64,000 nt of DNA from Acidobacteriota bacterium (GTDB lineage: Bacteria; Acidobacteriota; Terriglobia; Terriglobales; Acidobacteriaceae). Location of the stretch: assembly GCA_016196065.1 (NCBI GenBank), contig JACPYL010000010.1, forward strand, positions 1,054,001 through 1,118,000, read 5' to 3'. Positions 63 to 56,884 of this stretch are shown here, in pieces. The notes below the pieces were generated by a model. The model made no database searches. It was not told the origin of the DNA and saw only the letters and a program-made list of their open reading frames with translations. The position numbers were made by a program, and so were the translations under genes. Each line of letters opens with the position of its first letter. Position 1 is the stretch's first letter.

Positions 63-378
63 TATCGGCAGTGGCCGCATGAAGGAGTCATTCTGAGCGG
101 GGTATGGGCCGCTTCGAACACCGGCCCTGCGAAGTGAAGGACCTGCGGCAATCGAGTTTCCAGCGCTCTGGAAACCGTCTGCTTTCGCCGCGTGTGAACC
201 AGCACGATGCCGGCGTCGCGTACTCGCCGACAGGTTCCTTAGCCTTCGCAACTGCTACGTCTCGCGTAGCGGTTGCTCCGCTCAGGATGCAGGTTACGAT
301 TCGATTGTCCCTGCCAGCCTGAGCATCGCACTGGCGGGCTGCCGGCGGGATACTTGCCATCCCGATTGCGAGGCGCTC
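63..378. other. Noncoding leader region upstream of the lipid operon
   Basis: This stretch of 316 bases has no convincing gene; the short open frames in it resemble no family and lack ribosome-binding sites. It contains one strong hairpin (248-276, listed separately) and otherwise probably the promoter of the acyl-CoA ligase operon. No clear -35/-10 pair was found by eye. Confidence 0.5.
248..276 (+). promoter_or_regulatory. Strong hairpin in the leader of the lipid operon
   Basis: Bases 248-259 pair with 265-276 to give a 12-bp stem (eleven Watson-Crick pairs and one U-G) around a five-base loop. No U-tract follows, so it does not look like a simple intrinsic terminator. It lies about 100 bases before the acyl-CoA ligase start. 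It could be part of a leader RNA or a protein-binding site; its function is unknown. Confidence 0.45.
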
Positions 379-2028
379 ATGAAGATCCCACTTACTCCCA
401 TTCGTTTCCTGCACTATGCGTGCGACCAGTTTCCCGACAAGGTCGGAGTAGTGTGCGGCGACCAACGCTTCACTTATGCGGAATTTGCGGACCGCGCCAT
501 GCGTCTGGCGGGAGTGCTCGTCGGCGCGGGCGTTCGGCCCGGCGATCGCATCGCTTTCCTCAGCACAAATTGTCACCGGTTGCTGGAGGCTTACTACGGA
601 GTGCTGGAGGCGGGCTGTATTTTGCTGCCCTTGAACATGCGCCTGAGCCCGCAAGAACTGGCTTTCGTTTTGAATGATGCGCAGGCCAGGTTTCTGTTCG
701 TCGAATCGGCGTTCGTCCCGCTCGTGGAATCGTTTCGCGCTACGGTTCCGTCCATCGAAGCTTCGTTCCTTTTGGACGGTTACCGCGAGGAGACGTGGCT
801 TTCGCCGCGGAACTATGACGAAATGTTGTCGGCTTCTTCTCCCTATGCTTGTGACTTCATGCAGGTGGATGAGGATTCCGTGGCCGAGCTGTTCTATACC
901 AGCGGCAGCAGCGACCGTCCGAAAGGAGTGATGCTCACTCATCGCAACGTATATCTGCACGCATTGTCTGTGATGGCCGCGGGCCAGACTTCTCCGGCGA
1001 CGTTGGGAGATATGTCGTGCCAATCCGTGCTGCTGCACACCATTCCTTTGTTTCACGCGAACGGGTGGGGGACGGCTCATACCATCACGGTTGCGGGAGG
1101 CACGCACGTCATGATTCACCAATTCAATCCAACGGAAGTGTTCCGCCTGATCGAGCGGGAGCACGTGACCACTTGTGCAATGGTTCCCACGATGGCCAAT
1201 GTGCTGGTGCATTCTCCGGAGCGGTCGAAGTACAACCTGAGCAGTTTGAACATGGTCATCATCGGCGGAGCGGCTTCGTCCCCGACGCTGGTGAAAGAGG
1301 TTGAAGAGAAGGTCGGCTGCACATGCATCTCTGGATATGGGTTGACGGAAACTTGTCCCACGCTGGCAAAATCGCCGCTGAAGTCGGCGATTCCGACAGC
1401 CGGGGAGGAGCGCTACGTTCGTCAGTCCATGACGGGGTTTGCGATTCCGGGGGCTGAGCTGCGCGTCGTCGGCCAGAACGGGAAAGACGTTCCGCACGAT
1501 GGTACGGTGATGGGCGAGATCGTGGCCCGGAGCGACGGCGTCATGGAAGGTTACTGGCGTCAGCCCGAAGCTACTGCCGCCGCGCTGAAAGACGGTTGGT
1601 TCCACACCGGCGACATGGCCACCGTTGACGCTCACAATTACATTCAGATTGTTGACCGCAAGAAAGAAATCATTGTGAGCGGCGGGGAAAATATTTCTTC
1701 CCTGGAAGTGGAGAAAGTACTGCTGGCGCACGCGAGCGTTTACGAAGCTGCCGTGATTCCAATTCCTGATGACAAATGGGGAGAGGTCCCGATGGGAGTG
1801 GTCGTGCTGAAGCCGGGCGCTCAAGCCACAGCAGCCGATCTTCTGGAATTCTGTCGCGCGCGGTTGTCGCACTACAAGTGTCCGCGATCGATCGAATTCG
1901 TCGCGAGCATGCCCAAGACTGGCAGTGGGAAACTCCTGAAACGCGAACTCCAAAGCGCTGTCCTGCATGACGGCCGGTTCGCCCTTCGGCGTGATCAGCC
2001 GAGCGAAGTGGTTCAGAATTCGCAGTAG
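379..2028 (+). CDS. Acyl-CoA synthetase / fatty acid-CoA ligase (AMP-forming)
   Basis: This 549-residue enzyme of the ANL superfamily would activate a carboxylic acid to acyl-AMP and then acyl-CoA. The P-loop-like motif begins at Y173 (YTSGSS, then RPKGV). The GYGLTET adenylate motif, the hinge region DRKKEIIVSGGENI and a C-terminal PKTGSGK lysine motif follow, so both lobes are complete. It is the first gene of a long co-directional lipid cluster, 10 bases ahead of the next gene. The natural substrate is probably a medium or long fatty acid, perhaps the product of the downstream megasynthase; that part is inference. Length is usual for the family. Confidence 0.9.
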   Translation: MKIPLTPIRFLHYACDQFPDKVGVVCGDQRFTYAEFADRAMRLAGVLVGAGVRPGDRIAFLSTNCHRLLEAYYGVLEAGCILLPLNMRLSPQELAFVLNDAQARFLFVESAFVPLVESFRATVPSIEASFLLDGYREETWLSPRNYDEMLSASSPYACDFMQVDEDSVAELFYTSGSSDRPKGVMLTHRNVYLHALSVMAAGQTSPATLGDMSCQSVLLHTIPLFHANGWGTAHTITVAGGTHVMIHQFNPTEVFRLIEREHVTTCAMVPTMANVLVHSPERSKYNLSSLNMVIIGGAASSPTLVKEVEEKVGCTCISGYGLTETCPTLAKSPLKSAIPTAGEERYVRQSMTGFAIPGAELRVVGQNGKDVPHDGTVMGEIVARSDGVMEGYWRQPEATAAALKDGWFHTGDMATVDAHNYIQIVDRKKEIIVSGGENISSLEVEKVLLAHASVYEAAVIPIPDDKWGEVPMGVVVLKPGAQATAADLLEFCRARLSHYKCPRSIEFVASMPKTGSGKLLKRELQSAVLHDGRFALRRDQPSEVVQNSQ

Positions 2029-2038
2029 GTCGAACACC

Positions 2039-2821
2039 ATGGACGAAACCGCGTCTACCGTAACGCTGCAGCAGCAAACGCGGGAGAGCTTTAATTCCTA
2101 CATTCGTGACGCCGAAATGGAGATGGAGCAGATTCTTAACGGCGGCGGTCCATTCCTGTGGTCCGATGCCATCGCGAAAAGAACCGAGGCAGTCCGAAGA
2201 GGAGAGGTCCTGGCGCAGTTCTGGTCGGGTAAAGGGCCGGTCAAAGTGCCCAGTGGATTGATCCATGACTGGATCGGAGCGGCGCTGATTCCGGGCACGA
2301 ATATTGAAGACACCATAGCGCTGGTGCAGGACTACAACAACCACCAGAACATATATCAACCTGAAGTCATCGCATCAAAATTGATCAGCCGTCACGGCGA
2401 CGAGTTCCAGATCTACTTGCGTCTTCTCAAGAAAAAGATCCTGACGGTGGTGCTCGATACGGATCACGACGTGCACTACCGCGCGCTCGACAAGAAGCGC
2501 TGGCTGTGCCGGTCGTACACAACGCGGATTGCCGAAGTTGAAGACGCGGGACGCCCGACCGAGAGGGTGATGCTGCCCGATACCGGCTTCGGCTTCCTGT
2601 GGCGTCTTTATTCTTACTGGCAATTCGAGGAAAGTGGAGCAGGCGTTTCGATCGAGTGTCGAGCAATCTCGCTGACGAGGGATTTACCGTTCGGGCTGGG
2701 ATGGATTATCGAACCGATCGTTCAGACACTCCCAAAAGAGTCATTGATGCGTACTCTTGAGGCGACCCGGCAAGCTTTGCAAGGCTCCGCCCGTGTTCAC
2801 GCCGGAAACGTCAGGCGCTGA
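2039..2821 (+). CDS. Conserved hypothetical protein, possible SRPBCC-like lipid-binding fold
   Basis: The 260-residue product starts at the ATG at 2039, just after the ligase stop; an upstream in-frame ATG at 1967 would overlap the ligase. No signal peptide or membrane segment is evident. The C-terminal part (about residues 180-250) has the pattern of a strand followed by a long amphipathic helix, and includes GLGWIIEPIVQTLP. I associate this pattern with START/SRPBCC-like proteins in acidobacteria, but this is memory of similar sequences, not a proven family. If right, it may bind a lipid intermediate. Its position in the lipid operon supports a lipid role. Confidence 0.7.
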   Translation: MDETASTVTLQQQTRESFNSYIRDAEMEMEQILNGGGPFLWSDAIAKRTEAVRRGEVLAQFWSGKGPVKVPSGLIHDWIGAALIPGTNIEDTIALVQDYNNHQNIYQPEVIASKLISRHGDEFQIYLRLLKKKILTVVLDTDHDVHYRALDKKRWLCRSYTTRIAEVEDAGRPTERVMLPDTGFGFLWRLYSYWQFEESGAGVSIECRAISLTRDLPFGLGWIIEPIVQTLPKESLMRTLEATRQALQGSARVHAGNVRR

Positions 2822-2984
2822 AAGCTGTTCAACCGGCCTTCTTCCCGCTGCACTCATGCTGCACCGCACATTTTTGTTGTGACCCCGCGCACTTTCATCC
2901 GTGATACCAGCCACGGACTTCCCACCTTGGGAATGTTCTAGTGATGGCGTATTTCCGTTTCGGCTGGAACAGTGAGGAAATTTC

Positions 2985-3371
2985 ATGGATGTGCAGGAGT
3001 GGTCGAAGGCCACTGTTGATTATGGCCGAAAGGTTCTGAATTCTGGGCTGGAGGGAGCGCGTTCCGGCCGAGAAGCATTTCTACATGGTAAGTCTCTTAC
3101 TCCGTTTCTATGTGAGTCGGTTCGACATGCTGTGAAGCCTGCCCTTTTTGGGGCTTGCATCGGCGTCTTGAGCAGTTGTTCAGGAAGTCGTCCCAAGTCA
3201 GTGCGCAAATCATTGGCTTGGGGACTTCTCGGTGGAACCATCGGCTTGGTGGCAGGCATTGCCTGGAAAAGCCGCTGCTTAACGACCAGCGTCGCGGATG
3301 GCGCCATGGAAAGCATGGGCAGAGTGCGCGATGAGCACTGGCTGGAGAAACATCCCATCGACTACGCATAG
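2985..3371 (+). CDS. Small hypothetical protein with a glycine-rich hydrophobic segment
   Basis: This is a 128-residue protein of unknown function. Residues about 45-95 contain two moderately hydrophobic Gly/Ala/Ser-rich stretches (around FGACIGVLSS and LLGGTIGLVAGIAW) that could form a membrane hairpin or glycine zipper. The ends are charged. The ATG at 2985 follows GAGGAAA, an acceptable ribosome-binding site. A gap of 163 bases separates it from the gene before. It may be a membrane accessory protein of the lipid operon; no family was recognised. Confidence 0.6.
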   Translation: MDVQEWSKATVDYGRKVLNSGLEGARSGREAFLHGKSLTPFLCESVRHAVKPALFGACIGVLSSCSGSRPKSVRKSLAWGLLGGTIGLVAGIAWKSRCLTTSVADGAMESMGRVRDEHWLEKHPIDYA

Positions 3372-3498
3372 GAAGACAAGACCCTAACCCGGCGAAATCG
3401 TTCTCTGGCCGCTCTTGGCGGTCGCGACCAGCCGGCTAAAACAGAGTGAGTGTGCTTCTCGCAGGTACTCAGCCCCGGATGTGAATCAAGGGGGCGCA

Positions 3499-6165
3499 AT
3501 GATCACAAGTGAAGTAGTGCAGGAGCGGGTGAAGACCCAGCCTGCGACAGAAACTCTCAGTGTCGAACGGATTGCCTACCTTGAAACGTTAGTCCGTCAA
3601 GCTAAAACTGCCGCCGCCGTCTTTACCCAATTCACGCAAGAAGATGTGGACCGCATCGTCAAGCCGATGGTGCTGGCCGGCCTGGAACACGCCCAACATC
3701 TCGCCCAGCTTGCGGTCGAGGAAACCAAGATTGGTGTGATGGAAGACAAGGTCATCAAGAACATGGTGGCCACGGAGTTTGCCTACAACTATGTCAAGGA
3801 TAAGCGCACGGTCGGCGTGATTCGCGAGTTTCCGGAACGCAATCTGGTCGAGATGGCGGAACCCATCGGCGTCATCTTCTCGCTTACTCCCATCACGAAC
3901 CCCACGTCCACGGTGCTCTTCAAATGCATCATGGCGATCAAGACGCGGAACGCTGTAATTTTCAGCCCGCATCCGAACGCCTGGCGTTGCTGCTCTGAGG
4001 CCGTGAAGATCATGTATGAGGCAGCGCTGAAGAATGGCGCACCCGAAGGCGTTTTCACCTGTCTCGAAACCCACACCTTGCAGGACAACGCTTACTTGAT
4101 GCACCACAAAGATGTTGGCCTGATCGATGCCACGGGCGGACCGGGCGCGGTGAAGGCGGCTTACAGTTCAGGCAAACCGGCGCTCGGTGTGGGGCCGGGC
4201 AATACGCCGGTCTATCTGGAAAAGACAGCCGACCTGAGCACGGCAGTCGTGGACATCATCCTGTCGAAGACCTTCGACAACGGAACGATCTGCGCCTCTG
4301 AGCAGACGGTAGTAATCGACGATGAAATCTATGAAGTGGTGCTGAAGAAATTTGCGGAACTGAGGGCGCACATCTGCAACGAGAAAGAAACCGAACTGCT
4401 GGAGCGCACGGTCATCGATCCGGAAACAGGATTCATGCATCCGATGGCGGTCGGACAGAAAGCGACTGACATTGCTCGCCGCATCGGTCTTTCCGTGAAG
4501 CCAAACACCAAGCTCCTGATCGCTCCGATTCGGGGAGTGGGCCGCGAACACCCATTGTCGGTGGAGAAACTCTTCCCCTTGCTCTCGGTATATCGCGCAA
4601 AGTCGGTCGACGAGGCGCTTAAGGTGTGTATCGACGTCAATCATGCGGGCGGTCTGGGGCATACGGCCGTCATCTTCTCGCGCAACGACGAAATCATCCG
4701 TAAATTCGGCGAAGTGATCAACGCAGGCCGGATTCTCGTGAATTCGCCAGGTTCGGTCGGGGCCGTGGGCGCCATCTACAACGATCTGGTACCAACGTTC
4801 TCCTTCGGATGCGGCACCGGTGGCGGCAACAGCACCACCGACAACGTGAACATTTATCACTACCTCAACATCAAGCGCGTCGCCCGCAGGACACAGGCCC
4901 ATATGTGGTTCCGAGTTCCCAATCAGATCTATTTCAACCGCAACGCGGTGGAGAATCTGCGGCAGTTTCCATCGCAGTGCACGTTCATCATTACGAACCC
5001 CTCGCTGGAGAAGTTCGGTCACGTTGACATTGTCCGGCGATACATTCCCGCGCAGACTCACGTCCACGTTTCGGTCATTCCCGATGCTGAACCCGAAATC
5101 AAAGTCGTGATGCAGGGAGTGGACGCACTCAATTTCTATAAGGCGGACCAGATTATTGCGCTCGGCGGCGGATCGGTGATCGACGCAGCCAAGATCATGA
5201 AGCTCAAGTACGAATCGCCGGACGCAGATCTCCAGGAACTGGCCGCGCCTTTTCTGGATCTGCGCAAGAGAGTGGTCCAGTACCCCACAGAAAAGACGAA
5301 CCGCGCTCGACTCATTGCGATCCCGACCACGAGCGGAACGGGAAGTGAAGTGACTCCGTTTGCGGTGCTGACCGACAAAGAGCATGGCCGCAAAGTAACT
5401 CTGGCTGACTATTCGCTGACTCCGGATGTGGCGATTGTCGATTCGCAATTTGTGATGTCGATGCCGAAAGGACTTACTGCCGACACCGGTATCGATTGCC
5501 TGACGCACGCGCTCGAAGCTGCCGTGTCAACCCTGGCATCGCCTTACACGGATTGCAACGCAATGCAGGCGATCCGCATGGCCTTCAAGTATCTGCCGAT
5601 CGCTTGCGAGAATCCGCGCGATGAAGAAGCACGCAGCATGATGCACAACGCAGCGTGCATTGCGGCGATGGCGTTTTCGAACGCGGCCGTAGGCGTGAAT
5701 CACGCGCTCGCGCACGCATTCGGAGCGCGCTTCGGCGTGCCGCACGGGCGGGCCAATGCTCTCATGCTGCCGCATGTAATTGCGTACAACGCGGGCGTGC
5801 CCACGAAGTTCTTGCCGTCTCCTTATCAGCAGGGTTACGTCGCCAACAAGAAATACGCGACCATCGCGGACTTGCTCGGCCTGGGTGGACAGACGATTGA
5901 CGAAAAGGTACAGAACCTCGTTGTGGCGATAGAGAATCTGCTCGACCAACTCGATGTGCCACGCTCGATCGCAGACCTGGGAATCTCGAAGGAAGAATTC
6001 GAGCGGGCCATGCCGGATTTAGCCCGGCTGGCATTTGACGATCCGTCCTGGCGGTCGAATCCCCGGATGCCGTTGATCAGCGAATTGGCCGACATGTTCT
6101 GGCAGGCCTATCGGGGAAGAGGCATGGAGAACGTCATCAATACAGCTCAGCAACAAACCGCGTAG
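3499..6165 (+). CDS. adhE: Bifunctional acetaldehyde/acyl-CoA dehydrogenase and iron-containing alcohol dehydrogenase
   Basis: The 888-residue protein has the AdhE layout. An N-terminal CoA-acylating aldehyde dehydrogenase (about 25-460) carries its catalytic Cys at 265 in FDNGTICASEQ. A C-terminal Fe-type alcohol dehydrogenase (about 470-880) has GGGSVIDAAK near 556 and the metal-ligand regions TGIDCLTHALEA and VNHALAHAFGARFGVPHGR. The start is the ATG at 3499, 5 bases after AGGGGG; an upstream TTG would add an unlikely tail. The family normally interconverts acetyl-CoA, acetaldehyde and ethanol with NADH. Between an acyl-CoA ligase and a wax ester synthase it could instead reduce a longer acyl-CoA to the alcohol; that is inference. 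Length matches E. coli AdhE. Confidence 0.93.
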   Translation: MITSEVVQERVKTQPATETLSVERIAYLETLVRQAKTAAAVFTQFTQEDVDRIVKPMVLAGLEHAQHLAQLAVEETKIGVMEDKVIKNMVATEFAYNYVKDKRTVGVIREFPERNLVEMAEPIGVIFSLTPITNPTSTVLFKCIMAIKTRNAVIFSPHPNAWRCCSEAVKIMYEAALKNGAPEGVFTCLETHTLQDNAYLMHHKDVGLIDATGGPGAVKAAYSSGKPALGVGPGNTPVYLEKTADLSTAVVDIILSKTFDNGTICASEQTVVIDDEIYEVVLKKFAELRAHICNEKETELLERTVIDPETGFMHPMAVGQKATDIARRIGLSVKPNTKLLIAPIRGVGREHPLSVEKLFPLLSVYRAKSVDEALKVCIDVNHAGGLGHTAVIFSRNDEIIRKFGEVINAGRILVNSPGSVGAVGAIYNDLVPTFSFGCGTGGGNSTTDNVNIYHYLNIKRVARRTQAHMWFRVPNQIYFNRNAVENLRQFPSQCTFIITNPSLEKFGHVDIVRRYIPAQTHVHVSVIPDAEPEIKVVMQGVDALNFYKADQIIALGGGSVIDAAKIMKLKYESPDADLQELAAPFLDLRKRVVQYPTEKTNRARLIAIPTTSGTGSEVTPFAVLTDKEHGRKVTLADYSLTPDVAIVDSQFVMSMPKGLTADTGIDCLTHALEAAVSTLASPYTDCNAMQAIRMAFKYLPIACENPRDEEARSMMHNAACIAAMAFSNAAVGVNHALAHAFGARFGVPHGRANALMLPHVIAYNAGVPTKFLPSPYQQGYVANKKYATIADLLGLGGQTIDEKVQNLVVAIENLLDQLDVPRSIADLGISKEEFERAMPDLARLAFDDPSWRSNPRMPLISELADMFWQAYRGRGMENVINTAQQQTA

Positions 6166-6168
6166 TGG

Positions 6169-6456
6169 ATGGTGATGCTTATGGCAGTGCTTGCAGTGTG
6201 GCTCAAGGTTGATGAGAAACGTATCGTCCAGATGTTGGAAGCGGCCGGCAAGAAGCTGGAGAGCGCGGACGGTGAAGTGGTGCTCGATTTTTCGGCGGTA
6301 CGCCGCATCGATCCGGGCGCGGTGCGGGCGATGGAAGAGTTCGCCATGATCGCGGACGATAAATGCGTCAAAGTCATTTTGCGCGGAGTGAATGTCGACG
6401 TCTACAAGGTGCTTAAGCTGGTCAAGGTGGCGTCTCAGTTTTCTTTTGTGAGCTGA
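6169..6456 (+). CDS. STAS-domain protein (anti-sigma-antagonist-like) without the usual phospho-Ser
   Basis: The 95-residue product follows adhE by 3 bases and is one STAS domain. It has an amphipathic helix at the start, then VVLDFSAVRRIDPGAVRAMEEF, then a strand with VILRGV and a final helix. In anti-sigma-factor antagonists the central loop is D-S-S/x-G with a phosphorylated Ser. Here it reads DPGA, so a phospho-switch is unlikely. It may be a structural partner or a regulator that does not work by phosphorylation. Translation is probably coupled to adhE. Confidence 0.75.
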   Translation: MVMLMAVLAVWLKVDEKRIVQMLEAAGKKLESADGEVVLDFSAVRRIDPGAVRAMEEFAMIADDKCVKVILRGVNVDVYKVLKLVKVASQFSFVS

Positions 6457-6520
6457 GATACGGGATTGCCCGGAACCATTTTTCCGGAACCATTGTTTCG
6501 TGATCACGAGGAGAGTTGTT

Positions 6521-8113: not shown

Positions 8114-8141
8114 CTAGACCCGGGCCAGAAAGCCGTGGAAG

Positions 8142-10226: not shown

Positions 10227-10244
10227 AACATTTCGGAGGTGAAT

Positions 10245-11036
10245 GTGGAGATCCTGGTTTGCGTTCGACGAGTACCTGACACGTCGGAAAACGAGATCGC
10301 GCTCAACAGCGCGGGCAACGATATTGAGCGCGACGAACTCGTGTATTCGATCAATGAACCGGACAACTATGCAGTCGAAGAAGCTTTGCAAATCGCCGCT
10401 CGCGACGGGGGCACGGTCACGGTAGCAACCGTGGGAGCGGAAGACGACGAAGAGGTCCTGCGCCGCCAAATGGCGATGGGCGCAACCCACGGCGTGCTCC
10501 TCTCCGATGAGGCTTTCGGCGGATCGGATGGCCGGGCCATTGCCACCATCCTGAAAGGCCTTGTGCTCAAGGGCAACTACGACCTGATCCTGACGGGCGT
10601 GCAGGCCGAAGATGGCGGCGCACAAGTCGGCGGCATGCTGGCCGCGATGCTCGATTATCCGTTTGCCTCGCTGGTCAATGCCGTCGAAGTGTTGCCCGGC
10701 AAGAAGCTCAAGATCAGTCGCGAAATCGAAGGCGGAAACAAAGAGATGAGCGAGATCGACCTCCCGTGTGTGCTCTCGATTCAGACCGGCATCAACGAAC
10801 CGCGTTACGTCGGCATGCGAGGGATACGGCAAGTCGCGTCGATACCGATCCCGACCTACGGTGCGTCCGAACTTGGGATCGACGCAACTTCGGTTGGCGA
10901 AGCGGGCGCAAAAGTAAAACGAATGGATTACTTCCTGCCCGTGCTCGGCAAGGGAGCCGAGATGCTTGAAGGCAGCCGGGAAGAAATTATCGACAAGCTG
11001 GTGGAACTGGTCGCGGCCAAAGGAGGGTTGAAATAA
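10245..11036 (+). CDS. etfB: Electron transfer flavoprotein beta subunit
   Basis: The 263-residue EtfB carries the expected N-terminal ILVCVRRVPDTSE segment, the NEPDNYAVEEAL region and the ADP/AMP-binding fold with TGVQAEDGGAQVGGMLA. EtfB pairs with EtfA to carry electrons from acyl-CoA dehydrogenases to a quinone reductase. The GTG at 10245 lies 5 bases after GGAGG, so I prefer it to the GTG at 10239, which overlaps that site. The stop overlaps the etfA start by one base (TAATG), implying coupled translation. Confidence 0.95.
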   Translation: MEILVCVRRVPDTSENEIALNSAGNDIERDELVYSINEPDNYAVEEALQIAARDGGTVTVATVGAEDDEEVLRRQMAMGATHGVLLSDEAFGGSDGRAIATILKGLVLKGNYDLILTGVQAEDGGAQVGGMLAAMLDYPFASLVNAVEVLPGKKLKISREIEGGNKEMSEIDLPCVLSIQTGINEPRYVGMRGIRQVASIPIPTYGASELGIDATSVGEAGAKVKRMDYFLPVLGKGAEMLEGSREEIIDKLVELVAAKGGLK

Positions 11037-12022: not shown

Positions 12023-12032
12023 GGTTTCCTTC

Positions 12033-13709: not shown

Positions 13710-13722
13710 CAGGAGCGCCATT

Positions 13723-22566: not shown

Positions 22567-22628
22567 TCGACAGTAGATGATCGACAGCAAATAGATCGTT
22601 TCATTGACATTGATCGATCGAGGACCCT

Positions 22629-25600
22629 ATGAAACAAGAATTCCAACGCATAGCAATTGTGAATCGCGGTGAAGCCGCCATGCGTTTCATCCACGCGGCC
22701 CGCGAATTCAATCACGAGAACGGGACAGCGTTGTGCACCATCGCCCTCTTCACCGAGCCTGACCGTCACGCCATGTTCGTCCGCGAAGCAGATGAAGCGG
22801 TGTGTCTCGGGCCTGCTCAGGTCATGGACGAGAACTCCCAGCAACTCAAAAGCAGTTACGTTGACTACGTCCTGCTGGAGCGCGCATTGACGTCTGCACG
22901 CGCGGACGCGGTCTGGGTGGGATGGGGTTTCGTAGCGGAGCATGCTGCCTTCGCGGATCTCTGCCGCGAGTTGGGCATTGTGTTCATCGGCCCCGATGGC
23001 GACATGATGCGCCGCCTGGGCGACAAAATCGCCTCGAAACACTTGGCCGAGAAAAATCAGATACCGGTCGCACCCTGGAGCGACGGCCCTGTAGAAACTC
23101 TGGCTGACGCACAGCGCCACGCCAACCGCCTGGGCTATCCGCTCCTTGTTAAGGCCACTGCTGGAGGCGGAGGCCGCGGCATTCGCGTGGTCAATAACAC
23201 GACTCAACTCGCCAGGGCTTTTGAAAGGGCACGCGCGGAAGCATTCAAGGCTTTCGGTGATCCCACCGTTTTCATGGAGAAACTGCTCGAAGGCGCGCGG
23301 CACGTCGAAGTCCAGATCATCGCCGACCAATACGGAACCACGTGGGCCGCAGGCGTACGTGACTGCACGATTCAACGCCGCCAGCAGAAAATTCTGGAAG
23401 AAGCTCCGTCACCGGCCCTCTCGTTAGAGCAGGATCAATCTCTTCGCGAGGCAGCGGTCCGATTGAGCCAGGCCGCGGGCTACTCCAACGCCGGCACTGT
23501 GGAATTCCTGTACCAGCCTGAGAGCGAGAGAATTTCGTTCATGGAAATGAACACAAGGTTGCAGGTGGAACATCCGGTCACCGAGTGTACGACGGGCATC
23601 GATCTCGTCAAATTACAGATTCACGTCGCGCGCGGCGAGCGCCTCGAAGGAGAACCGCCCCGCAGTACCGGCCATGCCATCGAAGTCCGGCTCAATGCAG
23701 AAGATCCGGACAACGGTTTTTCGCCGGCGCCTGGCCGCATCGAGCGCTTCCGAATTTTGACCGGTCCCGGCGTACGCGTGGACACTGGCGTGGCCGAAGG
23801 CGACACGATCCCGGCAGACTTCGACTCCATGGTCGCCAAGATCATCGCCTACGGTCAGACCCGGAAAGAAGCTCTTGCCCGTCTCCAACGAACGCTGCGT
23901 GAGAGTGTCGTGGTGATCAAGAACGGCGCCAGCAACAAGGCATTTCTCCTGGACCTGCTGAACCGTCCCGAGGTGCAGCGTGGTGAGGTTCATGTCGGAT
24001 GGCTCGACCAACTGGCAGCGTCAGGTGAACTTGGCTCGCGACGCTACTCTGAGGTGGCAATCGTGCAGGCGGCGATCGAGGCCTACGACACGCAACTGGC
24101 CGTGGAACAAGCGCAGTTCTACGCCTCCGCAGTGCGCGGACGACCGCAGGTGCGCAGCGAGGCGGGTCGCACCGCCGAACTTCGCTATCGAGGACATGTC
24201 TACTCTCCCAAAATCCATCGCCTCGGTCCGCGACAGTATCGCGTCGACGTCAATGGCGCGCGCGTGAATGCTTCCCTGGACCGGTTGGGACAGTTTGAAT
24301 ACTGGCTCACGGCCTTCGGCCGGCGCTTTCATGTTGTCTCTGTAGTGCAGGGGCAGAGCTACCGCATCGAAGTGGATGGCGTGTCCCACCAGATTGATCG
24401 CGACGACGGCGGCATCGTACACGCTCCGGCACCATCGGTTGTGGTTTCCATTTCCGTAAAACCAGGCGACACAGTCGCAGTGGGAGATCGCGTCGCAGTG
24501 TTGGAAGCGATGAAAATGGAAATGGAGGTCGTCGCCCCATTTGCGGGACAAGTCCGTCAGGTGATGACTATCCCCAACGTGCAAGTGGATACAGGAGCGC
24601 CACTCCTGCAGATTGACCCTGTTGACGCCGGCGACGTGGATACTGCGGCGGAACAGGTTGTCTTTAGCGCAGCACTCGGTTCGAGCGGGACCGTCGAGAC
24701 AATTCACTCCAGCTGCGCGAGTCTCGAGGAACTCCGGCAACTCATGTTGGGCTTTGATGTTGACCCGAAACGGGGCGCCAGCCTCCTCGCCGAGTGGAAG
24801 CAGCATGGTCCCGTAACCGATGACATCAAGCGAGGAGAAGACGAGATCGTCAACATCTTCGTGGACATATGTTCTCTATTCCAGCGCGAACCGGCCGCAA
24901 GCCATCAGCTCAGCGCGGAGGAGCCCAGCCCGGAAGCCTACTTGTTTTCGTATCTGCGCATGCTCGACACGCAGGGCGAGAGCCTGCCTCGCCCATTTGT
25001 TGAAGCTCTCAGCCGTGCACTGGCTCACTATGGGGTGCGCACGCTGGATCGTTCCCCGGAATTGGAAGAAAGTCTGCTCTGGATCTATAAGTCCCACCAG
25101 CGTGTGGAGCAGCAGCTCGCGACCGTTGCGGAAGTGCTGGAACGGCGTTTGCGCCAGGTGCAACCGCTGCCTTCGTCCGAGGACGAATCCATGCGAACGC
25201 TGTTGGACCGACTGGTCGCGATGGCCAACGGGCGATTCCCGTCGATCAGCGACCTGGCCCGGGAATTGCGCTATCGCTGTTTCGACCAGCCATCATTCGA
25301 GAGAGCGCGGGCTGAGGTATACGACCAGATGAACGAACATCTCACTTGTCTGGACGCCAATCCCGATGCTTCGGATCGTCATGCGCGAATGCGCGTGTTG
25401 GTGGAGTGCCCGCAACCTCTCGTGGGCATGCTCTCCGGCCGGCTTGCCGATTCGAGCCATGCCATGCGCAGTTTGATGCTCGAAGCACTTACGTCCCGCT
25501 ACTACCGTATCCGTGAGTTGACGAACTTTCGTACGGTAGATATCGACGGGCGCTGCTACGCATTGGCCGAGTACGAACATGAAGGAAAGAGTGTCAATCT

Positions 25601-28220
25601 CATCGCTACTCATGACGAATACCACCACCTTCCTGTCGCCATTGGAGGTTTGTTTCCTCTGATTGCGCAAGTTCCCGCGGACCACGAAATCGTCATCGAC
25701 CTCTACACTCGCTCGGGTCAACTCGACGATGCGGAGGCAACGCAACAGGAAATTCACACAACGCTCAATCAATCGGGCTTCGCGCGCGTGATCGAGCGCA
25801 TCGCCGTGGCCGTCACCTCCGCGTCCAACCACGGAATCGGCGGCGTGCAGCAATTCACCTATCGTCCTCAGGAAGGCGCCTACGAGGAGGAGAAGTTCTA
25901 CCGCGGAATTCATCCCATGATGGCCAAGCGGCTGCATCTCTGGCGGCTCAGCAATTTCAAGATCGACCGGCTGCCCTCCGTGGAAGACGTATATCTCATC
26001 CACGCCATCGCGCGGGATAACCCGAAAGACGAGCGCCTGTTCGCGTGTGCGGAGGTACGCGACGTAACCCCGGTGCGCGATGATGAAGGACGTATCGTCC
26101 AACTGCCGCACCTGGAGCGCATGCTGATGGAAGCGATGGCTGGCATCCGGCTGTTTCAGTCACGCCGGCCCGCGAACCAGCGCCTTTACTGGAATCGAAT
26201 CCTGTTGCACGTGTGGCCACCACTCAATCTGCACCGGGACGAGTTGCGCGACATCGTGAACCGGCTCGCACCCGCAACGGAAGGCCTCGGACTGGAGCAG
26301 GTTGTGGTCCATGCACGAATTCCAAATCCAGCGACCGGCGAACTCCGCGAGATGGTGGTTCGCATTTCAAGCCCAGGAGCAAGCGGAATGCTGGTGACGT
26401 TCCGGCCAGCCGACAAGATGCAACCGATCCAGTCGCTGACCGAATACGACCAGAAAGTGGTCCGCATGCGGCAACGCGGCCTGATCTACCCATACGAAAT
26501 CATCAGGATGCTCACGCCCGCGCCGGAAAACACCCGGGCGGAATTTCCTCCGGGAAACTTTACGGAGCACGATTTGGATGCGAACGGCAAACTTGTTGCC
26601 GTCGATCGACCCTACGGAAAAAACAAAGCCAACATCGTCGTCGGGATCATACGCAATTTCACGGGTAAGTATCCCGAAGGGATGACGCGTGTTCTGTTGT
26701 TGGGAGACCCAAGTAAAGACCTGGGTGCGATCGCAGAACCGGAGTGCCGTCGCATTCTGGCGGCCCTCGACATGGCCCAACAGATGGGCGTTCCGCTGGA
26801 ATGGTTCCCGATCTCCGCCGGGGCCAAGATTTCCATGGATAGCGGTGTCGAAAACATGGACTGGATTGCCCGCGTCCTGCGCAGTCTGGTGGAATTCACG
26901 CAAGCGGGAGGCGAAGTCAATCTACTGGTGAATGGAATCAACGTCGGGGCGCAGCCCTACTGGAATGCGGAAGCAACCATGCTGATGCACACTCGCGGCA
27001 TTCTGGTGATGACGCCGAAGGCAGCGATGGTGCTCACTGGCAAGCGCGCCCTGGACTATTCCGGAAGTGTTTCCGCCGAGGACAATCTGGGAATTGGCGG
27101 CTATGACCGCATCATGGGAATTAACGGCCAGGCACAATACTGGGCCCGCGACATTGATGAAGCGTGTCACATTCTGATGCGCCACTACGACCACACCTAC
27201 GTCGCACCGGGCGAACGGTTTCCCAGGGCAGCCGCGACGGTCGATCCCGTTGATCGAGACGTGCGGGCCTATCCCCACAACACAAACGGCGGAGAGGGTT
27301 TCGCGCGGATTGGGGAGATATTGTCCGATGAAACCAATCCCGGCCGGAAGAAATCTTTCGACATTCGCAGCGTGATGATGGCGGCGATTGACCAGGACCA
27401 CGCTCCGCTGGAGCGCTGGCCCGGCATGCGAGCCGCAGAGACTGCGGTGGTCTGGGACGCCCATCTCGGTGGCTATCCTGTTTGCTTGATCGGCATCGAA
27501 TCCCAGCCCGTGCCACGATTGGGATTTGCCCCTGCCGACGGGCCCGATCAATGGTGTGCCGGCACGCTATTCCCGCAATCCTCCAAGAAGATTGCTCGCG
27601 CCATCAACGCCGCAAGCAACAACCGGCCGCTCGTGCTGCTGGCGAATCTTTCGGGCTTTGACGGTTCGCCGGAATCGATGCGCAGGTTACAGCTCGAATA
27701 CGGCGCAGAGATTGGGAGAGCAGTGATCAACTTCAAGGGACCGATCGTTTTTTGTGTGATCTCCCGCTATCACGGCGGCGCCTACGTGGTTTTCTCCCGG
27801 GCCCTGAACGAGAACCTTGAAGTCGCGGCGCTGGAGGGCACCTACGCCTCAGTCATCGGTGGTGCGCCGGCCGCGGCCGTCGTCTTCGCTGGCGAAGTGG
27901 AAGCTCGGGCTCGCAAAGATGAGCGACTGCAGGCGCTGAACCAGGCGATGGCCAAGGCCGAAGGCGCTGAGAAAGTTCGCCTTCGCAAGCAATGGGATGA
28001 CCTCTTCAAGGTCGTTCATTCGGAGAAACTGGGCGAGATGGCGTCCGAATTCGACCACGTGCACAGCGTGCAGCGTGCGCTCGAAGTGGGCGCGCTCGAT
28101 CGAATTATCCCGCCTGCCGACCTGCGTCCCTATCTCATCGATGCAGTGCAGCGAGGTGTCGAAAAAGAACTGCAATGGAGTGCCGCAGAACCGGAATCCA
28201 AGATCGTCGAAGCGGCCTAA
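22629..28220 (+). CDS. Single-chain (eukaryote-like) acetyl/acyl-CoA carboxylase: BC-BCCP-central-CT
   Basis: The 1863-residue protein carries all carboxylase activities on one chain. Biotin carboxylase (1-450) has IAIVNRGEAAMRF, the ATP-grasp loop KATAGGGGRGIR and MNTRLQVEHPVTE. The biotin carrier domain (about 590-660) has Lys629 in EAMKMEME as the biotin site. A central region (about 700-1100) follows. The C-terminal carboxyltransferase (about 1150-1840) includes GGYDRIMGINGQAQYWARD. This order is that of eukaryotic ACC, not of the four-subunit bacterial enzyme; it is shorter than the ~2300 residues of eukaryotes, mainly in the central part. It would make malonyl-CoA or a longer homologue for the synthase just upstream. 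Start ATG 22629 follows GAGGA. Confidence 0.88.
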   Translation: MKQEFQRIAIVNRGEAAMRFIHAAREFNHENGTALCTIALFTEPDRHAMFVREADEAVCLGPAQVMDENSQQLKSSYVDYVLLERALTSARADAVWVGWGFVAEHAAFADLCRELGIVFIGPDGDMMRRLGDKIASKHLAEKNQIPVAPWSDGPVETLADAQRHANRLGYPLLVKATAGGGGRGIRVVNNTTQLARAFERARAEAFKAFGDPTVFMEKLLEGARHVEVQIIADQYGTTWAAGVRDCTIQRRQQKILEEAPSPALSLEQDQSLREAAVRLSQAAGYSNAGTVEFLYQPESERISFMEMNTRLQVEHPVTECTTGIDLVKLQIHVARGERLEGEPPRSTGHAIEVRLNAEDPDNGFSPAPGRIERFRILTGPGVRVDTGVAEGDTIPADFDSMVAKIIAYGQTRKEALARLQRTLRESVVVIKNGASNKAFLLDLLNRPEVQRGEVHVGWLDQLAASGELGSRRYSEVAIVQAAIEAYDTQLAVEQAQFYASAVRGRPQVRSEAGRTAELRYRGHVYSPKIHRLGPRQYRVDVNGARVNASLDRLGQFEYWLTAFGRRFHVVSVVQGQSYRIEVDGVSHQIDRDDGGIVHAPAPSVVVSISVKPGDTVAVGDRVAVLEAMKMEMEVVAPFAGQVRQVMTIPNVQVDTGAPLLQIDPVDAGDVDTAAEQVVFSAALGSSGTVETIHSSCASLEELRQLMLGFDVDPKRGASLLAEWKQHGPVTDDIKRGEDEIVNIFVDICSLFQREPAASHQLSAEEPSPEAYLFSYLRMLDTQGESLPRPFVEALSRALAHYGVRTLDRSPELEESLLWIYKSHQRVEQQLATVAEVLERRLRQVQPLPSSEDESMRTLLDRLVAMANGRFPSISDLARELRYRCFDQPSFERARAEVYDQMNEHLTCLDANPDASDRHARMRVLVECPQPLVGMLSGRLADSSHAMRSLMLEALTSRYYRIRELTNFRTVDIDGRCYALAEYEHEGKSVNLIATHDEYHHLPVAIGGLFPLIAQVPADHEIVIDLYTRSGQLDDAEATQQEIHTTLNQSGFARVIERIAVAVTSASNHGIGGVQQFTYRPQEGAYEEEKFYRGIHPMMAKRLHLWRLSNFKIDRLPSVEDVYLIHAIARDNPKDERLFACAEVRDVTPVRDDEGRIVQLPHLERMLMEAMAGIRLFQSRRPANQRLYWNRILLHVWPPLNLHRDELRDIVNRLAPATEGLGLEQVVVHARIPNPATGELREMVVRISSPGASGMLVTFRPADKMQPIQSLTEYDQKVVRMRQRGLIYPYEIIRMLTPAPENTRAEFPPGNFTEHDLDANGKLVAVDRPYGKNKANIVVGIIRNFTGKYPEGMTRVLLLGDPSKDLGAIAEPECRRILAALDMAQQMGVPLEWFPISAGAKISMDSGVENMDWIARVLRSLVEFTQAGGEVNLLVNGINVGAQPYWNAEATMLMHTRGILVMTPKAAMVLTGKRALDYSGSVSAEDNLGIGGYDRIMGINGQAQYWARDIDEACHILMRHYDHTYVAPGERFPRAAATVDPVDRDVRAYPHNTNGGEGFARIGEILSDETNPGRKKSFDIRSVMMAAIDQDHAPLERWPGMRAAETAVVWDAHLGGYPVCLIGIESQPVPRLGFAPADGPDQWCAGTLFPQSSKKIARAINAASNNRPLVLLANLSGFDGSPESMRRLQLEYGAEIGRAVINFKGPIVFCVISRYHGGAYVVFSRALNENLEVAALEGTYASVIGGAPAAAVVFAGEVEARARKDERLQALNQAMAKAEGAEKVRLRKQWDDLFKVVHSEKLGEMASEFDHVHSVQRALEVGALDRIIPPADLRPYLIDAVQRGVEKELQWSAAEPESKIVEAA

Positions 28221-28236
28221 ATGGCAAGGTGAAGGA

Positions 28237-28962
28237 ATGAAAGTGTACTGGCTGGAACAAACGCAAGAGGAAGTTCCGGAAAAAAATGATTGGCTCAGCT
28301 CGAGTGAAACCGTTTGCTTGAGCAACATGCGCATTCCCAAACGACGGATGGACTGGCGGTTGGGGCGATGGACAGCAAAACGCGCCCTCGCCTCATGGCT
28401 GCATGTTCCCGCTCATCCGCTTGTGTTTGCGAAAATCGAAATTCGGCCGGCACCGACGGGCGCTCCTGAAGTCTTCCTGGCGAACAAACCGGCAAACGTG
28501 AGCTTCTCCCTCAGTCACCGGGACGAAAGAGCAATGTGCGCCATCGCGCTGTCAGGCGCGGAACTGGGTTGCGATCTGGAAATGATCGAACCGCACAGCG
28601 ACGCCTTTCTCGCGGATTATTTCACAGCCCAGGAGCAAGCACTGGTGACGGGTATGTCCGCTGCGGATAGACCCCGGATGCTCGCCCTGCTCTGGAGCAG
28701 CAAAGAAAGCACGCTGAAGGCGCTGCACACCGGCCTGCGAGTCGACACGCGATGTGCTGTTGTCAGCCCCTCCGATCCGCTGGTTGAGCGGAACGGGTGG
28801 AGTCCGCTGCAGGTTCGCTACGCTGGCAACAGAGTTTTCCACGGCTGGTGGCAGAGGACAGAGGCCAGGTTGCGAACGCTCGTCGCAGCACCACGGCCGG
28901 AGCCGCCGATCCCGTTTCGCGTCCCAGAGTATTGTTCCGACCATGTCGCCCAGTACGCGTAG
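28237..28962 (+). CDS. Sfp-type 4'-phosphopantetheinyl transferase
   Basis: The 241-residue enzyme moves phosphopantetheine from CoA to carrier proteins. Family motifs are present: SFSLSHRDERAMCA, GCDLE with D113 and E115 as Mg ligands, and WSSKES with K156-E157. The start ATG at 28237 follows GAAGGA and lies 16 bases after the carboxylase. It is the only such enzyme in the window and the obvious candidate to charge the four megasynthase ACPs. Because those ACPs have Thr rather than Ser at the acceptor site, this enzyme may have adapted specificity. The last ~40 residues are Pro/Arg-rich and not part of the core. Confidence 0.9.
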   Translation: MKVYWLEQTQEEVPEKNDWLSSSETVCLSNMRIPKRRMDWRLGRWTAKRALASWLHVPAHPLVFAKIEIRPAPTGAPEVFLANKPANVSFSLSHRDERAMCAIALSGAELGCDLEMIEPHSDAFLADYFTAQEQALVTGMSAADRPRMLALLWSSKESTLKALHTGLRVDTRCAVVSPSDPLVERNGWSPLQVRYAGNRVFHGWWQRTEARLRTLVAAPRPEPPIPFRVPEYCSDHVAQYA

Positions 28963-28970
28963 AAGCTAGT

Positions 28971-30644
28971 GTGTCCGAGAAACAAATGTCATCCAGCAAC
29001 GGCCAATTCGATTTTGATTTCATTGTCATCGGATCTGGTTTCGGTGGCAGTGTCTCCGCGCTCCGACTGACGGAAAAAGGCTATCGCGTTGCTGTGATGG
29101 AAATGGGCCGGCGCTGGAACCCCGCCAATCTGCCGCGCACCAGTTGGTCGTTGCGTCGGTGGTTCTGGCGTCCTAGCCTCGGCCTACGTGGGTTCTTCAA
29201 CATACGGTTCTTTCGGCACGCAACCATCTTCCACGGTTGCGCGGTGGGCGGCGGATCGATCACCTATGCGACAACCTTGCTGCCCGCTCCCAGTAAAGTG
29301 TGGGAACGGGGAACCTGGGATGGATTAGCCGACTGGAAAACCGAAATGCCTCAGTACTACGGAACCGCGTCGCGGATGCTGGGCGTAGTGGAAAACAGAA
29401 TCCTCGGGCCCGCCGACCATCTTCTTCAGCAAGCTGCGCAACTTGCCGGAGTCGGACATACCTTCTACCGCACGAATGTGGGCATCTTCGAACCGGCGGA
29501 GAATCAGCCCGGCAATACCACAGTCCCTGACCCATTCTTTGGCGGAGAAGGTCCGGCGCGAACCACCTGCATCGGCTGCGGAGGCTGCATGATGGGTTGC
29601 CGTTTTGGCGCCAAGAATACGCTGGACCTGGGCTACCTGTTTCTGGCTGAAAAGCACGGAGCACAAGTATTTCCGGAAACCAGAGTAGTCAGCGTAAAGC
29701 CCCTGCATGGCAGCGAGGACGGCAGTCAAGGCTACGAGGTTGGAACCGTTCCATCCATGGCATGGTTCCGACACAAGCCACAGCGATTCACTTGCCGCGG
29801 CGTGATTTTCTCTGCGTCGTCGCTAGGCACGATGGAACTTCTTTTTCGATTCAAGGAAATTGGTTTGTTGCCGCACCTCAGCGAGCAAATCGGACAACAC
29901 GTTCGTACAAATTCCGAATCGCTGATCGGCGCGCGCACGCCGGGCCATTCGCAAGACTTGTCGGAAGGGATCGCAATCGGTTCCGGCGTCTACATTGACG
30001 AGCACACCCACATCGAGGCGGTCCGTTATCCACGCGGGTCCGACGCGATGGGGGTTCTCACCACGATCCTGACCGATGGCCGCCCCGGCCCGCAGAGGAT
30101 CGCGCTCTGGCTCAAGAACGTGATGGCGTCGCTGCTCCGTCATCCGCTGAAGACGGTGCGCGTACTGCAGCCTTGGGGCTGGGCGCGGGAGTTCGTGATC
30201 CTACTGTGTATGCAGGCTCTCGATGGAGAGATCGAGATGCGCTGGCAACGACCGTGGTTCTGGCCGTTCCGGAAATATCTGGTGAGTCGGGGAGAGAAAG
30301 TTCCCACCTACATTCCGAAGGCCAACGAGTTCGCCAAGGTGTACGCACAACTCACTGGCGGGTTTGCAATGAGCATGCTTCCGGAAATTCTGTTCGACGT
30401 ACCGGGCACGGCGCACTGTATTGGAGGATGCGTGATCGCAAATTCCTCAACGCGCGGTGTGGTCGACCATCGCCAGCGCGTGTTTAATTACAAGAACATG
30501 TACATCTGCGACGGGTCCGTCGTGGCGGCAAACCTCGGCGTCAACCCCAGCCTGACGATCACGGCACTCTCCGAACGGGCCATGAGCTTTATCCCACTTG
30601 CGACGCAGACAACGTGGGACGATAGCGCTACGAAAGGCGCGTGA
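28971..30644 (+). CDS. GMC-family FAD oxidoreductase with CxxCxxCxxxC motif
   Basis: The 557-residue flavoenzyme resembles bacterial cholesterol-oxidase-like GMC proteins. The FAD-binding motif GSGFGGSVSALRL is near residue 20, GCAVGGGSITYA follows, and the C-terminal region has HCIGGC and VNPSLTITALSER. A cysteine cluster with Fe-S spacing occurs at C200, C203, C206 and C210 (CIGCGGCMMGC). I recall similar clusters in this subfamily. It would oxidise an alcohol; in this operon a fatty or hydroxy-acyl alcohol is plausible but unproven. GTG 28971 is taken as the start (8 bases after the transferase stop); ATG 28986 is the alternative. Confidence 0.82.
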   Translation: MSEKQMSSSNGQFDFDFIVIGSGFGGSVSALRLTEKGYRVAVMEMGRRWNPANLPRTSWSLRRWFWRPSLGLRGFFNIRFFRHATIFHGCAVGGGSITYATTLLPAPSKVWERGTWDGLADWKTEMPQYYGTASRMLGVVENRILGPADHLLQQAAQLAGVGHTFYRTNVGIFEPAENQPGNTTVPDPFFGGEGPARTTCIGCGGCMMGCRFGAKNTLDLGYLFLAEKHGAQVFPETRVVSVKPLHGSEDGSQGYEVGTVPSMAWFRHKPQRFTCRGVIFSASSLGTMELLFRFKEIGLLPHLSEQIGQHVRTNSESLIGARTPGHSQDLSEGIAIGSGVYIDEHTHIEAVRYPRGSDAMGVLTTILTDGRPGPQRIALWLKNVMASLLRHPLKTVRVLQPWGWAREFVILLCMQALDGEIEMRWQRPWFWPFRKYLVSRGEKVPTYIPKANEFAKVYAQLTGGFAMSMLPEILFDVPGTAHCIGGCVIANSSTRGVVDHRQRVFNYKNMYICDGSVVAANLGVNPSLTITALSERAMSFIPLATQTTWDDSATKGA

Positions 30645-30743
30645 CCGGGACTCCGTGACGCAGATCACTGAGACTCTACCGCGCGCGATGCATCCTGCAG
30701 AGGACAACATCGTCGGCGAAAATTACCGGCGAGGAGGCTCACT

Positions 30744-30953
30744 ATGGACCGACAGATAGATTGGCCATGGAGTTGGGAAGAAGAAGCAGAGTGGAAGGCA
30801 GAACTGGAAGAAAGAGACAATGATTTCGTCGAGGAGTTGATCGAAGATGCGGTCGAAGGGCGTGTCACCGACTCCCGTTACGCTCTCGGACTTCCGGCGG
30901 AAGGTGAGTCGAGCGCGGATCGTGCTCCCGACAAATACCTGGTCGTAACCTAA
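30744..30953 (+). CDS. Small acidic hypothetical protein
   Basis: This is a 69-residue, strongly acidic protein, with many Glu and Asp and four Trp near the N-terminus. It starts at an ATG preceded by GAGGAGG. It has no signal peptide or recognisable motif. The good ribosome-binding site and the position 99 bases after the GMC gene support a real gene, probably the last of the lipid operon. Function unknown. Confidence 0.6.
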   Translation: MDRQIDWPWSWEEEAEWKAELEERDNDFVEELIEDAVEGRVTDSRYALGLPAEGESSADRAPDKYLVVT

Positions 30954-56875: not shown

Positions 56876-56884
56876 GGCAAACGT

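Follow-up and report, generated by a model that had tools for sequence, protein, structure and literature searches.

A Type R-like lipid synthase operon in an acidobacterium, with a conserved acyl-CoA dehydrogenase partner and a candidate ester-forming module

Introduction

The closest described systems to the locus examined here are the Type R synthases of Shulse & Allen 2011 (PMC3098273), defined in the accessible part of that paper as one protein of the layout KS-MAT-CLF-ACP(3-6)-KR followed by a phosphopantetheinyl transferase (PPTase). The same text places them in Koribacter, Solibacter, Elusimicrobium, and Roseiflexus with uncharacterised products, and in Koribacter an acetyl-CoA carboxylase (ACC) gene lies between the synthase and the PPTase. 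Here, we analysed an acidobacterial window of 64,000 nt (the whole stretch of DNA, bases 1,054,001-1,118,000 of contig 10 in a genome of 5.53 Mb) that carries an operon of this kind, with a single PfaA homologue, a PPTase gene, and an ACC gene between them. It differs from Type R in that a DH region follows the KR and in that the second ketosynthase (KS2), the chain-length factor (CLF) of Type R, keeps all catalytic residues. The core, a Type R synthase with an ACC, is thus already known, and the operon is not categorically new; what is new is an acyl-CoA dehydrogenase (ACAD) that is a near-universal partner of the synthase across phyla, a competent-looking KS2, and tailoring genes that track the synthase in acidobacteria.

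Other known systems share parts of this design. Polyunsaturated fatty acid (PUFA) synthases PfaABCD (Types A/B) and heterocyst glycolipid synthases (Type F) have the same PfaA-like KS-AT-ACPn-KR-DH backbone, whereas our operon has no PfaB, PfaC, or PfaD genes, its genome has no PfaD match, and both ketosynthases lie on one polypeptide. Bacterial storage of wax esters and triacylglycerols employs the same acyltransferase family, wax ester synthase/diacylglycerol acyltransferase (WS/DGAT), with its HHxxxDG motif; the WS/DGAT systems known to us use chains from type II fatty-acid synthesis (FAS II) together with the fatty-acyl reductases FAR or Acr1, and we know of none linked to a secondary-lipid synthase or to AdhE. 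The enoyl-CoA reductases for acryloyl-CoA and caffeyl-CoA that are linked to electron-transfer flavoprotein (ETF) share the ACAD fold, AcrC being the best NCBIfam match of our ACAD and CarC one of its structure matches; our ACAD, however, scores far below the AcrC cut-off, has a C-terminal extension, and would be expected to act on a long-chain or ACP-bound substrate. For wax-ester synthesis in Euglena, a reversed ACAD supplied through complex I, rhodoquinone, and ETF is a proposed but disputed mechanism (PMC6334954). The likeness lies in this proposed reverse use of ACAD through quinone and ETF, followed by acyl reduction and ester formation, but the Euglena route is a reversed beta-oxidation on CoA thioesters with no PfaA-like synthase, so the analogy is functional only.

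Term searches of the accessible text of the Type R paper (PMC3098273) returned neither "acyl-CoA dehydrogenase" nor "wax ester", and the available part of a 2026 survey of PUFA-synthase-like hybrids (PMC13291983) returned no acyl-CoA dehydrogenase, carboxylase, Acidobacter-, or Type R. We found no later Type R product in the open-licence literature. The original prediction, made from the letters of the window, had called its combination of genes unfamiliar; this does not hold for the core of synthase, ACC, and PPTase, which is described as Type R in the accessible part of PMC3098273, but no description of the ACAD pairing or of the association of AdhE, WS/DGAT, and the GMC oxidoreductase was found in the accessible parts of the open-licence literature. 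With its near-constant ACAD partner, and with AdhE, WS/DGAT, and GMC genes that track the synthase, Type R becomes a concrete, testable pathway, and the ACAD-synthase pair offers a search handle for unexplored soil-bacterial lipids.

A PfaA-like megasynthase without its own enoyl reductase

The megasynthase (13723-22566, + strand, 2,947 aa) passes the PfaA model TIGR02813 narrowly, with 1015 bits against a cut-off of 1010.1. Domain searches and motifs gave the order KS1, AT, KS2 (16765-18300, +), four acyl carrier proteins (ACPs, four motifs), KR, and a C-terminal DH region, which is the Type R layout of one PfaA homologue, KS-MAT-CLF-ACP(3-6)-KR, with an extra DH. The motif FSLSH of the PPTase fits the Type R P1b' definition hShxH, and homologues from metagenome-assembled genomes of Solibacteraceae and Korobacteraceae cluster with the window copy in a tree.

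We scanned conserved residues in 89 loci and the window after dropping copies that cover less than 85% of a domain (of the 89, 13 for KS1, 0 for KS2, 21 for ACAD, 33 for KR, 35 for DH, and 52 for ACC). The Cys/His/His/Lys set is intact in 77/77 aligned copies of KS1 and 90/90 of KS2, the Ser/Tyr/Asn of KR in 57/57, the His of DH in 55/55, and the catalytic Glu of ACAD in 69/69. Because all four catalytic residues are kept in every aligned copy, KS2 looks like a competent ketosynthase, although Type R calls it a chain-length factor. The closest PDB matches of its AlphaFold2 model (pLDDT 74.7) are FabF-type enzymes, with TM values of 0.61-0.66 by query length and 18-23% identity among the matches listed.

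The domain search found no enoyl-reductase domain in the megasynthase. The PfaD enzyme that belongs to PUFA synthase Types A/B (TIGR02814) was unmatched in the whole genome at E <= 0.001, and none of the 12 genomes tested among carriers of the ACAD-synthase pair had PfaD above its cut-off. An NMO-domain gene at one actinomycete locus (L139) was considered as a PfaD and rejected, its sole NCBIfam match being FabK with 41.9 bits against a cut-off of 453.

An acyl-CoA dehydrogenase as the constant partner of the synthase

The gene directly upstream of the synthase (12033-13709, +) encodes an ACAD (PF00441/PF02770/PF02771) with the catalytic Glu kept and a C-terminal extension of ~170 residues past the matched region. 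The original prediction had listed this gene but overlooked that no other gene accompanies the synthase as constantly. Among named genomes, where we scanned the best 80 loci of 555 confirmed candidates, 60 of the 61 testable loci have an ACAD as the next gene 5' of the synthase (the exception is L158), with 62-86% identity across the loci that have the pair. By record title, these loci belong to Acidobacteriota, Actinomycetota, Calditrichota, Bacteroidota, Myxococcota, and KSB1, and the nearest synthase relatives in the same scan to Terriglobia, Acidobacteriaceae, and Candidatus Sulfotelmatobacter. In several actinomycetes the ACAD stop overlaps the synthase start; a fusion of the two in Nonomuraea (L152), suggested by the length of an open reading frame (ORF), was ruled out by a reading-frame check.

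Twelve further acidobacterial stretches gave an ACAD in 9 (one, L191, from the same record as L135), the exceptions being two distant synthases with 46-47% KS2 identity and one truncated copy (L189) without an ACAD upstream. The distant synthases, L185 (G297, 47%) and L186 (G286, 46%), carry an extra KS ahead of their KS-AT-KS core, and the short stretches upstream of them (1.5 and 2.2 kb) contain no ACAD; they are possibly a different, related synthase type.

Distances between ACAD copies correlate with those of KS1 (Mantel r 0.91, n=69), KS2 (r 0.85, n=69), and ACC (r 0.955, n=33), as do those of KS1 and KS2 on one polypeptide (r 0.83, n=77), with 0/999 permutations as high in each case; part of this correlation is the organisms' shared ancestry, since no unlinked control gene was compared. 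By eye, and among the rows listed (L102 left out), the KS2 and ACAD trees share large clades, namely a 33-row acidobacterial set, an actinomycete clade, a 10-row mixed clade, and the pair L187/L188, while few rows shift and Acidobacteriota form a single clade in neither tree. The window falls inside the 33-row set (31 acidobacterial and 2 unlabelled rows) in both. On these sequences, the pattern is the behaviour of one inherited cassette.

The best NCBIfam match of the ACAD, in the window and in one Mycobacterium locus, is acryloyl-CoA reductase (230-240 bits, below the cut-off of 640), and its structure matches include the caffeyl-CoA reductase CarC, most others being named dehydrogenases. 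Upstream of it are the genes of the ETF beta subunit (10239-11036, +; PF01012), the ETF alpha subunit (11036-12022, +; PF00766, PF01012), and a membrane Fe-S protein (8142-10226, +; PF02754, PF13187) whose function as an ETF:quinone oxidoreductase is probable. The last has a hydrophobic N-terminus, two [4Fe-4S] Cys motifs, a CCG domain, and His and Cys residues; it reached the cut-off of no NCBIfam model and may belong to the EMO-type proteins, which connect ETF with menaquinone. Fe-S and ETF genes stand beside the ACAD in 26 of the 27 testable loci of the set L089-L128, nearly all of which are Acidobacteriota.

Tailoring genes that track the synthase

We compared 61 genomes (own + 60) and found the synthase in 11 of them, 9 of the 24 in the genus and 2 elsewhere in the family, with 63-82% identity over pieces in the ten other carriers. 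Although some of these ten loci are cut by contig ends or fragmented, all ten have ACAD, synthase, ACC, and PPTase; the Fe-S protein, both ETF subunits, and a small protein encoded by gene 3 occur in 9/9 testable, WS/DGAT in 8/9, AdhE in 6/9, and GMC in 9/10. Gene content, order, conservation, and co-inheritance are here direct observations.

Genome-wide searches (E cut-offs of 1e-100 for AdhE, 1e-60 for WS/DGAT and for GMC, and 1e-8 for gene 3) extend this beyond the locus. AdhE with at least 80% identity occurs in 11/11 synthase carriers and 1/50 non-carriers (Fisher p 3e-11), WS/DGAT in 11/11 and 3/50 (p 9e-10), GMC in 10/11 and 0/50 (p 1e-10), and gene 3 in 11/11 and 4/50 (p 3e-9), and within the genus the same tests give p 8e-6 to 5e-4; they treat the relatives as independent although the genomes are phylogenetically related, which counts against taking these values at face value. 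Nineteen further genomes have solely matches to the aldehyde-dehydrogenase half of AdhE, at 40-47%, and the non-carriers with AdhE or WS/DGAT (G009, G021, G023) are 72-83% complete. An AdhE-STAS-WS/DGAT set in G002 and an AdhE-STAS pair in G001 and G011 lie on contigs away from the synthase, so the AdhE-STAS module can leave the locus and yet track the synthase. Another apparent split, in G015, was ruled out as such: a contig break falls inside the ACAD gene, and a second contig runs in the normal order from the ligase through gene 3, AdhE, STAS, and WS/DGAT into the first part of the Fe-S gene. Co-occurrence and synteny rule out chance neighbours, and we are almost certain that the genes form a real co-selected pathway.

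The families of these proteins were confirmed by profile searches. AdhE (3499-6165, +; ORF opens at 3415 with TTG), a bifunctional acyl-CoA reductase/alcohol dehydrogenase of ALDH and Fe-ADH parts, reaches 1150.6 bits with NF010378 (cut-off 951). The acyltransferase (6500-8113, +) belongs to WS/DGAT by TIGR02946 (342.7 bits, cut-off 309.95), with HHxxxDG as HHCLADG. The GMC oxidoreductase (28986-30644, +; ORF opens at 28797) clears the cholesterol-oxidase model NF058674 with 870.7 against 850 bits, and solved cholesterol oxidases match it weakly, in pieces. The ACC (22629-28220, +) combines PF02786, PF00364 with the biotin motif EAMKM, PF08326 (79.1 bits over 23.2), and PF01039 in one chain, BC-BCCP-ACC_central-CT, which confirms the eukaryote-like layout predicted for it. 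An ACC follows the synthase in 39 of the 47 testable named loci. It was seen without the biotin-carboxylase part in L102, as in two close relatives discussed below, and in L160 and L162 the match begins at residue 232-233.

Beyond the family, the phylum-wide draw gave KS2 matches of at least 46% identity in 25 of 396 genomes; matches were reported in 284 genomes altogether, and the rest, at ~30%, resemble general ketosynthases. The ACAD-synthase(-ACC-PPTase) arrangement persists outside the family, while AdhE, WS/DGAT, and GMC are seldom nearby, in stretches that often end too early. The expectation that megasynthase homologues would keep the same neighbours thus stands within the family, where co-occurrence is far beyond chance, but only in part outside it. 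In another genus (L195, G320 C2:667000-686999), WS/DGAT and GMC genes occur together, divergent from ACAD-synthase-PPTase, with ACC, ETF, and Fe-S unmatched in the 20-kb stretch.

Operon layout

All genes named in the original prediction are present on the + strand, with matching families by ORF and profile searches. It had counted fifteen genes from 379 with mostly short gaps; there are 14 clear ORFs, and an acidic 69-aa ORF at 30744-30953 (+), itself only a possible gene, is probably the fifteenth and the source of its end coordinate. The conserved unit, however, begins not at 379 but at gene 3/AdhE (2985, tight from 3499) and ends at 30644. From AdhE (ATG 3499) through the PPTase the successive gaps are 3, 43, 28, 12, -1, 10, 13, 62, and 16 nt, and the GMC gene (ATG 28986) begins within ~25 nt of the PPTase end, so 3499-30644 reads as one transcription unit. 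Wider gaps separate gene 2 from gene 3 (163 nt) and gene 3 from AdhE (127 nt). A promoter and terminator scan of 1-14000 was uninformative (2 promoter-like sites against 5.2 expected, 21 terminator-like against 14.7).

The boundary at gene 3/AdhE was set there because the ligase is upstream in 3/10 relatives' loci and gene 2 is unmatched in them. The long-chain fatty-acid-CoA ligase of the AMP-binding family (379-2028, +; PF00501 284 bits; NF004837 537 bits, cut-off 476) is an occasional neighbour, found in G003, G011, and G015. Gene 2 (2039-2821, +; its ORF opens at 1967 and has its first ATG outside the ligase gene at 2039) was assigned to no family and has no match above 60 bits in the relatives' stretches (0/10); both were therefore rejected as core members. 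Gene 3 (2985-3371, +) is a conserved member that encodes 128 aa with two hydrophobic stretches by eye and 54-68% identity to the window copy in a 10-row alignment; its poor AlphaFold2 model (pLDDT 54.6) was not used. The remaining members are a STAS-domain protein (6169-6456, +; PF01740 25.2 bits, cut-off 22.6) and the Sfp-type PPTase (28237-28962, +; PF01648 64.6 bits; FSLSH, WSSKE; ORF opens at 27997).

Proposed pathway and competing explanations

We propose, with confidence that is evenly balanced, that the operon pairs a secondary-lipid synthase of Type R with tailoring enzymes that form an ester, and that ACAD most likely serves as a trans enoyl reductase. The dedicated ACC would supply malonyl-CoA, the PPTase would activate the four ACPs, and the KS-AT-KS-ACP4-KR-DH enzyme would iteratively extend a long acyl chain; malonyl-fed iterative lipid synthesis is the established logic for these three families. 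ACAD would perform the missing alpha,beta-redox step on the synthase intermediates as an enoyl reductase, ETF and the membrane Fe-S protein connecting it to the quinone pool and menaquinol providing the electrons. With midpoint potentials of ~-10 and ~-74 mV, enoyl-CoA reduction by menaquinol is thermodynamically possible. The finished chain would be set free or activated as a thioester, a portion may be reduced to alcohol by AdhE and/or a separate fatty-acyl reductase, WS/DGAT would couple alcohol and acyl group to an ester, and the GMC enzyme could oxidise an alcohol group on products of the same family. We infer the product, the direction of ACAD, and the substrate of AdhE. The route from malonyl-CoA to alcohol to ester had been suggested in the original prediction; the coupling of synthase, ACC, AdhE, WS/DGAT, and GMC is borne out, while the route through alcohol to ester stays conjectural, AdhE being C2-like and the genome having a separate fatty-acyl reductase.

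ACAD is favoured as a trans-acting enoyl reductase because no PfaD exceeded its cut-off, ACAD is the constant partner, and AcrC is its best family match, and also because it is partnered by ETF and the Fe-S protein, menaquinol is a feasible donor, and a similar use was proposed for Euglena; even so, we hold this role tentatively, a little short of an even call. The tracking of the synthase by AdhE, WS/DGAT, and GMC supports an alcohol/ester product, and we lean slightly towards an ester. As an enoyl reductase, ACAD would couple the saturation of lipids to the respiratory chain, to our knowledge a first for an iterative type I synthase. A bolder extension, which we regard as rather unlikely, is that synthases of at least five phyla use ACAD-ETF-Fe-S, in place of an NADPH-dependent enoyl reductase, for saturation driven by respiratory quinol and that acidobacteria cap the chains as AdhE-WS/DGAT esters; the system would in that case be, with equally little confidence, a bacterial counterpart of wax-ester fermentation on a PfaA-like megasynthase.

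Several observations weigh against the proposed pathway. The usual ACAD reaction is acyl-CoA oxidation, and our ACAD, with 229.8 bits against the AcrC (NF042972) cut-off of 640, is not a member of that family. Six of the 12 ACAD-synthase genomes hold sub-cut-off PfaD-family matches, and in G457 the match is strong, split into parts of 372 and 218 bits that lie apart from the locus; the synthase could also be served by the general enoyl reductase of FAS II. AdhE is a full-length match, in profile and structures, to the ordinary acetaldehyde/ethanol AdhE and, judged by its sequence, looks like an ordinary C2 enzyme, and a fatty-acyl reductase of the male-sterility type is encoded elsewhere in the genome. 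In 2/10 close relatives (G013 = L052, G016 = L057) the biotin-carboxylase part of the ACC is missing, the matches starting at residue 464 or 449 directly after the synthase, so not every locus can encode a working single-chain ACC. Among the 27 testable loci of the set L129-L168, the Fe-S protein is present in 7, ETF-alpha in 7, and ETF-beta in 6, and no AdhE match was found in these stretches, many of which end before its expected place; the ester module therefore looks like a local addition. Of the seven Fe-S-bearing loci, two acidobacterial ones keep the usual order, and the five from actinomycetes have divergent ETF/Fe-S genes (28-54% identity) arranged as ETF-beta, ETF-alpha, Fe-S, ACAD, an assignment Pfam-checked in one locus (L139); such divergence and reordering, as expected from independent recruitment, speak in favour of the proposed pathway.

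The main competing explanation is that ACAD works in the oxidative direction, desaturating the finished chain at C2 or starting its turnover and passing electrons via ETF and the Fe-S protein to quinone, with an alpha,beta-unsaturated or remodelled lipid as product. Sets of ACAD, ETF, and quinone oxidoreductase are classically oxidative, the dehydrogenase names of most matched structures and NCBIfam families agree with this, and an acyl-CoA ligase stands at the 5' end, upstream also in 3/10 relatives. However, profile searches identified no enoyl-CoA hydratase or thiolase gene within the operon, the ligase is an inconstant neighbour, and the synthase would otherwise be left without its own enoyl reductase; we judge this explanation unlikely but a serious candidate. 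Enoyl reduction may instead not occur at all, the synthase making a polyene that WS/DGAT esterifies while ACAD trims or adds one bond, for which enediyne-type iterative systems are the model. The kept active-site residues of KR and DH, the absence of an ER domain, and the lack of a PfaD match in the genome agree with such a product, but it reduces a near-universal partner (60/61) to a minor role, and enoyl reduction in trans by a FAS II enzyme could still occur; a polyene appears improbable.

The C2-like match of AdhE lends itself to yet another explanation, in which AdhE performs C2 chemistry and the cluster is a low-oxygen overflow or electron sink that yields ethanol and reduced storage lipid, possibly as ethyl esters made by WS/DGAT. 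Genes for malate synthase and isocitrate lyase, which lie a little upstream of the window, agree with it, as does the precedent of an ACAD-ETF-quinone enoyl reductase in Euglena, proposed and disputed according to the available part of PMC6334954. Against it, AdhE, STAS, and WS/DGAT stay together when split from the synthase (G002), and an ester step with a longer alcohol fits equally; we see this sink as fairly unlikely. Degradation of an imported sterol or secondary alcohol by the ligase, ACAD, ETF, and cholesterol oxidase would account for the score of the GMC protein with the cholesterol-oxidase model and for the presence of ligase and ACAD, but the synthase, the dedicated ACC, and the PPTase are biosynthetic, and profile searches identified no degradation genes in the operon beyond ACAD, which makes catabolism highly improbable.

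AdhE as the sole route to fatty alcohol was ruled out by the presence of another fatty-acyl reductase. This likely enzyme is a 799-aa HAD phosphatase-NAD_binding_4-Sterile fusion encoded away from the operon in the same genome (C10 near 186 kb, L197:715-3111).

Genes around the operon

The glyoxylate-shunt genes lie ~5-8 kb upstream of the window, an isocitrate lyase-family gene at L058:3857-5293 (-) and the malate synthase gene at 5437-6978 (+); TPR and hydrolase genes separate this pair from the operon. Directly after the operon, window positions 31178-34381 encode a protein of 1,067 aa that combines Ig-like repeats with a polysaccharide deacetylase domain of the Agd3 type. It is followed at 35305-38883 by a 1,192-aa single chain that joins a winged helix (Trans_reg_C), a Ser/Thr kinase, NB-ARC/AAA, and TPRs, and at 40901-45043 (-) by a 1,381-aa protein with about ten HYDIN/ASH-like Ig repeats. 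An exopolysaccharide/exosortase cluster occupies 50204-63877 and includes an exosortase (EpsH + DUF3485), a sugar transferase, a glycosyltransferase, an AAA ATPase, and a Wzy-type ligase.

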